From positions 1 to 64,000 of the forward strand of contig JADDQE010000263.1 in assembly GCA_016781525.1 (NCBI GenBank): 64,000 nt of DNA, in the 5' to 3' direction. The notes under the pieces were generated by a model. It did not search any database. It saw nothing but the letters and a program-made list of their open reading frames with translations, and was not told the origin of the DNA. The position numbers were made by a program, and so were the translations under genes. Source of the stretch: a bacterium (GTDB lineage Bacteria; Chloroflexota; Chloroflexia; Chloroflexales; Kallotenuaceae). Positions 35,257 to 39,485 of the stretch are shown here, piece after piece (position 1 is the first letter of the stretch; the number at the start of each line of letters is the position of its first letter).

Positions 35257-35529
35257 GCCTCCTCTCGCAACCCATCCCGAAAGTATCGCTGCCTCAGGCC
35301 GTCAGGGTCGCTCCGCCTTACTTTACCGAAAGTTGTCGCGCCCGTAAAGCTGGTCTCATCCGCACAATTCGGCTGGTCTAAACTGACAGGAATGCGTGCT
35401 ACAATCGGCGCGCACGCAGGCTGGAAGGAGATGCTGACCCTGCCGGTCGAAGTCAGCGCTTCGTGGAAAGCTGCGCATGGTGGGGACCTACATGCCTCAG
35501 GGCAGTTGGCGATGAAAGGCGACAAGTGG

Positions 35530-36603
35530 ATGCATAGATTTGTCTACGAAGCACTGCCCGGCCGGATTGTCTTCGGTGTGGGTACCAGTAGATCCGAGCT
35601 GAGCGTCGAGATTGAGCGCCTGCGGGTCGCGCGTATCCTGCTGCTCACCAGCGCCCGTGGCAGGGAGCTCGCCGAGCAGCTGGCCGTGCCGCTTGGTGAC
35701 CGGGTCGTCGGAGTGTTTACGGATGTGCGACTGCACGTGCCGGCCGAGATCGCCGAGGCTGCCCGCTCGGCCGCACGAGCAGTGGGGGCCGACTGCTTGC
35801 TGCCCATCGGCGGTGGCTCCACAACAGGTACTGCCAAAGTGATCGCTCTGGCTATGCCGCTGCCGATCGTCGCCGTTCCGACGACCTACGCGGGCTCGGA
35901 AGTCACGCCGATTTGGGGGTTGACCGCCGGCCAGCGCAAGCAGACCGGGCGAGCGGTCGAGGTGCTGCCCAAGGTTGTTATCTACGACCCAGAGCTCACG
36001 TACTCATTGCCGAGCAACGTTACCGGCCCGAGCGCCATGAATGCGCTCGCCCACTGTGTGGAAGCGCTCTATGCGCCCGGTGCGAACCCAGTGACCTCGC
36101 TGCTGGCTGAGGATGGAATCCGACGGATTGCGCATGGGCTGCCGACGGCACTGGCACAGCCCGATCATCTGGATGCGCGCAGCGAGCTGTTGTATGGCGC
36201 TTATCTCGCCGGCGCTGTACTCGCGGCGGCAGGTGCCGGGCTCCACCACAAAATCTGCCACGTCTTGGGAGGCGCCTACAACTTGCCCCACGCCGAGCTG
36301 CACACCGTTATCCTGCCATATGTGGCCGCCTTCAATCAGCCAGCACTGTCGGATGTTATGGGTCGTATCGCACGGGCGCTCAACAGCGTATCTGCTGCCG
36401 CCGGCCTCTACGACTTGGCGCGACACAGTGGTGCTCCGGCAGGGCTCAAAGACCTGGGTGTGCGTCGGGAAAATCTGGACGAGGCCACAGGCCTGGTGCT
36501 TGCCGCGGCGCCACAAGATAATCCACGACCGATCGATCGCGCCGGTGTCCGCCAGATTCTTGAGAGCGCCTATACTGGCCTACGGCCAGAGGTTATCTGC
36601 TAG
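35530..36603 (+). CDS. Iron-containing alcohol dehydrogenase, maleylacetate reductase-like
   Basis: LPIGGGSTTGTAKVIAL...AVPTTYAGSEVTPIWGLTAGQRKQTGRAVEVLPKVVIYDP...HKICHVLGGAYNLPHAELHTVILPYVAAFN. Confidence 0.88.
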   Translation: MHRFVYEALPGRIVFGVGTSRSELSVEIERLRVARILLLTSARGRELAEQLAVPLGDRVVGVFTDVRLHVPAEIAEAARSAARAVGADCLLPIGGGSTTGTAKVIALAMPLPIVAVPTTYAGSEVTPIWGLTAGQRKQTGRAVEVLPKVVIYDPELTYSLPSNVTGPSAMNALAHCVEALYAPGANPVTSLLAEDGIRRIAHGLPTALAQPDHLDARSELLYGAYLAGAVLAAAGAGLHHKICHVLGGAYNLPHAELHTVILPYVAAFNQPALSDVMGRIARALNSVSAAAGLYDLARHSGAPAGLKDLGVRRENLDEATGLVLAAAPQDNPRPIDRAGVRQILESAYTGLRPEVIC

Positions 36604-36783: not shown

Positions 36784-37740
36784 TTAGTCGATTGGCTTGA
36801 GATTCGCCACAATCGCGTCGCGGCGCGGCTCCAGGAATGGCGCGAGCACCACCTTCTCGCCGAGTGTCGCCTCGTCCTCGTCCACCCCGAAGCCCGGTCC
36901 ATCCGACGCAATCTCGAACAAAATGCCATTTGGCTCACGAAAGTAGAGGCTGCGGAACCAGTACCGGTCCACCTTGCCACTGTTCGGAATGCGCAGCTCA
37001 TTCAGGCGCTCCGCCCAGCCGTCGTACGTTTCAAATGTGGGCGTGCGGAAGGCCACATGATGGACGCCACCGGCGCCGAGCTGCGCGGGAGGTAAATCAG
37101 GCTGGACTGCAACGTGTAGCTCAGCGCTAGGGCCGCCCGGGCCCATCTCGTACACGTGCACCGTATGCTTCGCCTGCTCTGGATGTGCATACTCACGCAC
37201 CGGACGCATATTAAGTGCCTGCTGAAGCACCGCGTCGGTCGGACGTAGCACGGGTACGCTCAGCATGATCGGTCCCAGTCCGCGCACCTGATACGCCGCC
37301 GGCACCGGACTACGCTCCCACGGATACGCCTCGCCGGCGCCCCCATCATCGATCAGTGTGAGCCGTTGACCCTCAGAATCTTCGAAATCGAGCATCAATC
37401 GCCCGTCGCGCTCCGCGATCTCGCCTGCGGCTGCGCCGGCCTCCCGAAAATGTTGGGCCCACCACTGGAGTGCCTCGAGTCCAGGGACACGTAGGTGCGT
37501 CCGGGTGATCGAGTGGGTGCCGCGCCGCTCGCGCGGCATCGGCCAGTCGAAGAAGGTAAGATCGGTGCCCGGGCTGCCCTTGGCGTCGGCGTAGAATAGG
37601 TGGTACGCCGTCACATCATCCTGATTCACGCTCCGCTTCACGAGCCGCATCCCAATCGTCTGTGTGTAGAAACGGTGATTCTCACGAATCTGCGCCGAGA
37701 CCGCCGTCAAGTGATGAATACCGGAAAGGTTAAGGTCCAT
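36784..37740 (-). CDS. VOC-family ring-cleaving dioxygenase (LinE/MhqO/PcpA type)
   Basis: [61 protein letters not shown]. Confidence 0.87.
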
Positions 37741-37742
37741 AA

Positions 37743-38732
37743 TTATCTCCCGTACCGCGCCGGTTGGGCAAACGACGCCGTTATAAGTGGTTTGAGCTGT
37801 GCTGCGATGTCGGCGCGACGTCCTTCTAGAAAGGGTGGTAGCGAGAGGCGCTCGCCGTCAATTGGATGGTCGACGTCAACGCCGGGGCCGTCAGTTGCCA
37901 GCTCGAAGAGAACTCCGTTTGCCTCGCGAACATAGACCGAGGCGAAATAGTGGCGATCGACCACACCTGTGTTGCGATAGTCAAGCGTATCAAGGCGCTC
38001 GACCCAGTCGTCGATCTGCTGGCTCTCGGGCACACGCAGGGCGACATGGTGTACTGCACCCGCGCCGTAGCGCGCGCGTGGCAGATCATCGCGCACAACT
38101 ACGTGCACCTCGGCATGCGCGCCCCCCTCGCCCATCGTGTAAACGTGCACCTGGAATTGTGGCGCCTCAGCCAAGGCGTACCTACGGTCCGCGCGCAGTC
38201 CCAGCGCCTGCGTGAGGAAGCGGTTTGTGGGCTCAAGCACAGGCACCGTAATCACGATGTAACCCAGGCCGCGGATTTGATACGAGGCCGGCACCGGGCT
38301 TGCGGCCCATGGGTGGGCCGTACCCGCGCCGCTGTCGTCAACCAACGAGAGCCGCGTGCCCTCGGGATCCTCAAAGTCGAGCACCTGCCGTCCATCCCGG
38401 GTCATGATGCCACTCGACGCGATGCCATGTTCTTGCAACCGCGTTGCCCAATACTCTAGCACCTCGGCGCCCCCGACGCGAAAGGTCGTGCGCGAGATAC
38501 TGTTGTTACCACGACGCTCGCGTGTGGCACGCGGCATATCAAACACCGTCATGTCGGAGCCGGGGCTGCCGACCGCGTCACCGTAAAAGAGATGGTACAT
38601 GCTGGGGTCGTCCTGGTTCACCGTCTTGATGACCGGGCGCAGGCCAAGCACGTCGGTATAAAAGTTGTGGGTCCGCTCAATGTGCGCGCTAAGCGCGCTC
38701 ACATGGTGGACGCCAATTAGCGATAGTAACAT
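37743..38732 (-). CDS. VOC-family ring-cleaving dioxygenase, tandem paralogue
   Basis: [61 protein letters not shown]; colinear with the downstream gene. Confidence 0.87.
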
Positions 38733-38854
38733 CCCAATTTCTCCCGAACCAGCACGCTGCGTGCCCGTCGGTACGGCAGCGTACGTGCTATCTGCCGTCC
38801 GGTATTGATTCATGCAATCGCAGTCCTCACAAGCCGATGTCCGACCGCTTCTGT

Positions 38855-38868
38855 GTTTAGTGCTAAAC
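38855..38868. promoter_or_regulatory. Putative MarR operator upstream of the dioxygenase operon
   Basis: GTTTAG-TG-CTAAAC inverted repeat, same core as the site in front of marR. Confidence 0.6.
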
Positions 38869-38885
38869 CGAGCCGGTAAAAAAAT

Positions 38886-39335
38886 TTAGGGTACGAGGCT
38901 ATGGTCGAGCTTGCGCAACAGGCGCAGCAGCTCATGCTGCTCGTCATCCGAGAGTGGAGCCAAGAGATCGGCAATCAGCGCTTCCTGCCGCGGCACCAGC
39001 TCGTGAAACAGCGCCCGGCCCCGCTCGGTGAGCGACAAGCAGTTGGTGCGGCCCTCCTGCCGCCGCGTGATCAGCCCTTCCTGCTCGAGCTTGCCAAGCA
39101 GCTGCGAGATATTCCCTTTGGTTACCAAGAGCGCCGCCGCTAGCTCCTGCTGGGACATACCCTCGGCGGCCCCAACCTTCGCCAGGACATCAAAGTGCGC
39201 CGTGTTTAAGCCGTGAGCCCGGAAGAAGCGCTCTGAGCGTGTGTCGATCTTTTGAAACACACGGGCCATGCGCAGCCATGCCAACACGGCCGGCCGGCGC
39301 AAGCTATGCTCTCTTCTTCGTGGCGTCCTGGTCAT
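38886..39335 (-). CDS. MarR-family transcriptional regulator
   Basis: GMSQQELAAALLVTKGNISQLLGKLEQEGLITRRQEGRTNCLSLTERG wHTH. Confidence 0.92.
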   Translation of the reverse strand: MTRTPRRREHSLRRPAVLAWLRMARVFQKIDTRSERFFRAHGLNTAHFDVLAKVGAAEGMSQQELAAALLVTKGNISQLLGKLEQEGLITRRQEGRTNCLSLTERGRALFHELVPRQEALIADLLAPLSDDEQHELLRLLRKLDHSLVP

Positions 39336-39340
39336 GACTT

Positions 39341-39358
39341 CAGTTTAGCACTAAACTG
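39341..39358. promoter_or_regulatory. Putative MarR autoregulatory operator
   Basis: Perfect inverted repeat CAGTTTAG-CA-CTAAACTG 6 bp upstream of the marR start. Confidence 0.65.
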
Positions 39359-39485
39359 TGGCGGTGTCAAGCCTGCCCAGGAACAGGCTGGCATCCGAAG
39401 CATTTGGTGTGGGACACGCCCCTGCGGCCCGGGTAATGATCGGGGAAGGGATTCTGAGGTGGCGATTAGGCCCGTTTCAACGCCG

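Follow-up and report, generated by a model that had tools for sequence, protein, structure and literature searches.

Two copies of a conserved palindrome around a marR gene: a putative operator pair of one regulator, with signs of two ways of working

What do two matching palindromes on either side of a marR gene do, and do they do the same thing? On the minus strand of the window (the whole stretch of 64,000 nucleotides that was analysed), a promoter-like sequence containing the palindrome O1 is followed by marR, a run of T residues (T-run), the palindrome O2 and two genes for ring-cleaving dioxygenases (Table 1). An earlier note had described both palindromes and read them as sites of autoregulation and operon control by the MarR protein. 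After comparing the locus with its relatives, we consider it very probable that a dimeric MarR repressor binds both GTTTAGNNCTAAAC boxes, with autorepression from O1, control of the dioxygenase genes from O2 and release by a phenolic or quinone ligand. The earlier reading stood for both sites; the apparent non-equivalence of O1 and O2 and the reach across the phylum were absent from it.

Table 1. Features of the marR-dioxygenase locus, in window coordinates
Feature	Position	Strand	Basis
marR, 149-aa MarR-family regulator	38886..39335	-	Pfam MarR_2 3.9e-13, MarR 1.3e-10
First extradiol ring-cleaving dioxygenase, Glyoxalase superfamily, MhqO/PcpA-like	37743..38732	-	PDB 1zsw 2.3e-71
Second, paralogous ring-cleaving dioxygenase	36784..37740	-	56% identical to the first
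Putative operator O1, GTTTAGCACTAAAC	39343-39356	none	Same site in 38/57 homologous loci, reversed control 0/57
Longer palindrome CAGTTTAGCACTAAACTG around O1	39341-39358		
Putative operator O2, GTTTAGTGCTAAAC, between marR and the dioxygenase genes	38855-38868	none	25/57 loci, control 0
Predicted marR promoter: -35 TTGACA 39370-39365, 17-bp spacer, -10 TAAACT 39347-39342	39342..39370	-	TTGAC 36/38, -10 final T 38/38
T7 run immediately past the marR stop, its end 9 bp from O2	38878..38884	-	T5+ run before 21/25 O2, 0/38 O1

The marR product is modelled by AlphaFold2 as a winged helix (mean pLDDT 89.9) with fold matches to MarR structures, and its recognition helix comprises residues 73-85 (KGNISQLLGKLEQ). 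The first dioxygenase further matches MhqO (3oaj, 2.1e-42) and a PcpA-type enzyme (4huz, 1.6e-21). In alignments with 4huz and 3oaj, both dioxygenases keep the two His and one Glu columns that supply the metal ligands in hydroquinone-type extradiol dioxygenases (PcpA/LinE/MhqO). The first gene most likely starts at 38732 and not at 38813, where the longest open reading frame begins, because the similarity to MhqO begins there and its ATG follows a purine-rich stretch. A maleylacetate reductase gene (about 35527-36603, plus strand; 3w5s 2.5e-93, 3hl0 1.6e-88) is convergent with the second dioxygenase gene. Maleylacetate reductase acts after ring cleavage in hydroquinone breakdown, and the gene fits a hydroquinone degradation pathway.

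Both palindromes of the earlier note were found again, and the downstream copy does lie between the marR stop codon (38886-38888) and the probable dioxygenase start. The upstream copy precedes marR as described, but not at the 6 bp given, the longer palindrome being 5 bp from the ATG. Across the 4,908,916-base genome, GTTTAGNNCTAAAC occurs exactly twice, both times flanking marR, with no other match at 0-1 mismatch and no exact match to the reversed pattern; the many unrelated matches that would have spoken against an operator did not appear. At up to two mismatches, 0.65 matches are expected in the shuffled 64-kb window, compared with the two exact ones seen. No large regulon thus emerges in this genome at 0-1 mismatch; its third dioxygenase-like locus (G000:C211) has no box, and a protein scan of genome contigs returned only three distant, uninformative loci.

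Sequence comparison among relatives points to both sites and to their positions. Fifty-seven marR-homologue loci were chosen by protein similarity alone from 100 relatives and the class of G388, and the box, counted at no more than one mismatch, was present at the O1 place in 38 and at the O2 place in 25, the reversed pattern at neither. The exact box occurs in 15 of the 16 genomes with an orthologue and in 0 of the 16 without; in one of the 15 (G061) the exact match lies inside an mrr-like gene, and its own O1 has one mismatch. When 400 genomes of the phylum were scanned blind for the 16-bp box, AGTTTAGNNCTAAACT, 24 genomes had matches, and 15 of the 18 new loci adjoin marR, dioxygenase or MhqD-like esterase genes. 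The other three lie near genes for a pirin (L132), a flavin oxidoreductase (L115) and a peptidase (L117), and the L132 and L115 boxes carry TTGAC at the -35 place, as do sites before dioxygenase genes far from marR in G067, G052 and G043.

Several of these loci show further arrangements. An exact operator with TTGAC immediately precedes the pirin (quercetinase-like) gene, L132:1488-2219 (G302), and L069:544-2199 (G067:C121), which has an operator of its own with TTGAC in front, encodes a single 551-aa protein in which a ring-cleaving dioxygenase is fused to an MhqD-like hydrolase. MhqD-like esterase genes occur in the loci of G004, G066, G409 and G273. A gene for an NADPH-dependent FMN reductase lies between operator and marR in L074:3123-3821 (G089) and is a plausible quinone reductase of the regulon. 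In another family of the order (L038, L039, L041, L163:3983-4100), a variant box precedes marR, and two GTTTANNNNTAAAC sites about 100 bp apart lie between the flavoprotein gene behind marR and the next gene; in the first three of these loci, T6 follows the marR stop and O2 is not visible. O2 is not essential everywhere, because many homologues are without it and four with TPGNVT helices beside a divergent dioxygenase gene (L034-L037) have no recognisable box.

O1 has the features of a promoter site. The right half of the palindrome makes up the predicted -10 element of marR, which is preceded by TG, as in 20 of the 38 O1 sites. Occlusion of the marR promoter at O1 is therefore a well-supported reading of the sequence pattern. 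About 6 nt separate the -10 from the marR start codon in the window (39333-39347) and at O1 of L017, L018, L019, L022, L028 and L029. Because of this short distance, the marR message of the window's order should be leaderless or nearly so; marR leaders are longer in the more distant class.

O2 differs from O1 in ways that suggest another mode of action. In 19 of the 21 O2 sites with a run of T5-T8, the run ends 8-9 bp from the box; such a run follows the marR stop in the window, L017-L019, L134-L146 and L154-L158. Fisher p-values for the O1/O2 differences ignore the relatedness of the loci, and the T-run label needs about four changes on the tree, so that a count of 21 loci overstates the number of independent events. 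TTGAC is absent from 23 of the 25 O2 sites, and the final T of the -10 is present in 13 and absent in 12. The lack of these promoter features speaks against an ordinary promoter site. Since O2 also lies behind a transcribed gene, we tentatively read it as a block to read-through from marR into the dioxygenase genes. The T-run may serve as a release element, as a -35 substitute or through DNA shape.

The strongest competing explanation is that O2 controls an internal promoter of its own, with the T-run as a -35-like or UP-like element, and that MarR occludes two promoters in the same manner. This is possible, if unlikely. The distance from the T-run to O2 (8-9 bp) matches that from TTGAC(A) to O1 (mostly 8 bp), and the two O2 sites with no T-run, L023 and L140, have TTGAC in that place. 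However, these two are the only O2 sites with TTGAC, TTTTTA agrees with TTGACA at only 3 of 6 positions, and the last -10 base is free at O2 whereas it is fixed in all 38 O1 sites.

Much less probable is a MarR-independent intrinsic terminator closing the marR gene, of which the T-run would be part. The T6 runs behind the marR stop in L038, L039 and L041, which have no visible O2, would agree with it, but it leaves the fixed spacing of 8-9 bp unexplained, and no hairpin adjoins the T-run (mean best energy -0.9 kcal/mol versus -2.0 in shuffles, an off-target T-run having been taken in L145 and L155). We rejected an intrinsic terminator for want of this hairpin.

If the boxes bound another regulator, their closeness to marR would be incidental, and the few exact boxes away from marR (L115, L117, L132) would agree with this. 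We regard this as very improbable, since the box tracks the presence of marR and covaries with its recognition helix, and boxes far from marR mostly stand before genes for dioxygenases of the family found here. Regulators with Lys73, the first residue of the helix in the AlphaFold2 model, have the outer pair G..C wherever the box is clear (GTTTAG..CTAAAC-type), whereas in all five with Gln73 the outer pair is changed (CTTTAG..CTAAAG or ATTTAG..CTAAAG). A single residue, at position 73, apparently determines the operator's outer base. The Gln-type regulators form one clade on the tree, so the covariation may be one evolutionary event, and an exception occurs in G043, whose regulator is Gln-type although the box in front of a dioxygenase gene far from marR (L104) has GTTTAG. 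In L158, O1 and O2 are altered together to a GTTTAA type (GTTTAATATTAAAC and GTTTAATATTGAAC). Because the same two places are kept, the box follows the orthologue, the blind scan recovers the same genes and the helix covaries with the box, the boxes are almost certainly this MarR's own binding sites; the same evidence strongly favours the proposed autoregulation and operon control. Equally improbable is DNA looping between O1 and O2, which are 488 bp apart both here and in G002: the spacing across loci (481, 487, 488, 499, 513, 570 and 722 bp) is not phased and simply tracks the length of marR, and MarR proteins as a rule bind DNA as single dimers.

A winged-helix MarR domain and a conserved palindromic O1 overlapping its own -10-like element place the regulator in the MarR family. 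Its gene neighbourhood resembles that of MhqR of Staphylococcus aureus and Bacillus subtilis (mhqRED, mhqNOP, mhqA, azoR2), likewise a MarR-type repressor beside ring-cleaving dioxygenase genes, with a palindromic operator at the promoter of its own operon. The window has two dioxygenase genes, and in relatives the locus also includes an MhqD-like esterase gene and one for an FMN reductase, all of them candidate members of the regulon. However, the MhqR operator, TATCTCGAA-aTCGAaATA, is a 9-9 bp repeat that spans -6 to +12 relative to the start site (PMC6798810), whereas the box here, GTTTAG-NN-CTAAAC, overlaps the -10 and is no TATCTCGAA-type repeat. Kinship among Firmicutes MhqR homologues is reported as over 40% (PMC12893000); S. 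aureus MhqR (9qdr) ranked 21st by sequence here (29.5 bits), with 21% identity in the fold comparison. In the parts of the literature examined, a second operator with a T-run is not described for MhqR. We therefore do not classify the regulator as MhqR, as operator sequence, operator position and protein sequence all differ.

Among solved structures, the best sequence match was to the urate-responsive HucR/UrtR regulators (47.6 bits). Asp73, Arg80 and Arg106 of HucR are conserved in the UrtR/HucR group. Asp49 aligns with Asp73, but Arg80 faces a gap and Arg106 is replaced by Leu79, and the controlled genes differ; with the key arginines missing, a urate sensor of the HucR type was rejected.

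Overall, we infer the following mechanism. A MarR dimer at O1 would cover the -10 of its own promoter and limit its own synthesis. At O2, it would restrain transcription of the two dioxygenase genes, probably as an obstacle to polymerase running on from marR, so that repression would be tighter for the enzymes than for MarR itself. Both blocks would be lifted by a phenolic or quinone ligand; to judge from the enzymes encoded, it may be a quinone or hydroquinone. A doubtful extension makes O2 and the T-run a repressor-dependent terminator, in which polymerase stalled by MarR on a weak rU-dA stretch would let go, so that marR would be transcribed at a low level, with the dioxygenase genes silent until MarR is displaced by the ligand.

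Roadblocks of this general kind are described for CcpA, CodY, LacI and PurR, where the DNA-bound repressor downstream of the start stops elongating polymerase (PMC10310618, PMC4132739). The available portions of these reports do not mention a phased T-run before the operator, and the roadblock proposed here is read from the layout of the locus. In Reb1-type terminators of RNA polymerase I, T-rich DNA likewise precedes a bound roadblock protein, but these terminators are eukaryotic and their proteins unrelated, and the analogy concerns layout only; a 2025 report attributes release of the roadblock-paused polymerase there to an RNA hairpin (PMC12366685). In the openly accessible literature searched, no published description of the box was found; one may exist in subscription journals or regulon databases.

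This analysis provides a putative operator and regulon for an apparently undescribed MarR subfamily that, by its boxes, reaches across a phylum, probably Chloroflexota, with few studied regulators, and residue 73 is one position that seemingly sets the outer base of the operator in this subfamily. The conserved T-run before O2 makes the bacterial use of removable repressor roadblocks with built-in release sequences directly testable. If the repressor-dependent terminator were true, the locus would represent a phylum-wide bacterial module that joins a release element to a removable roadblock.
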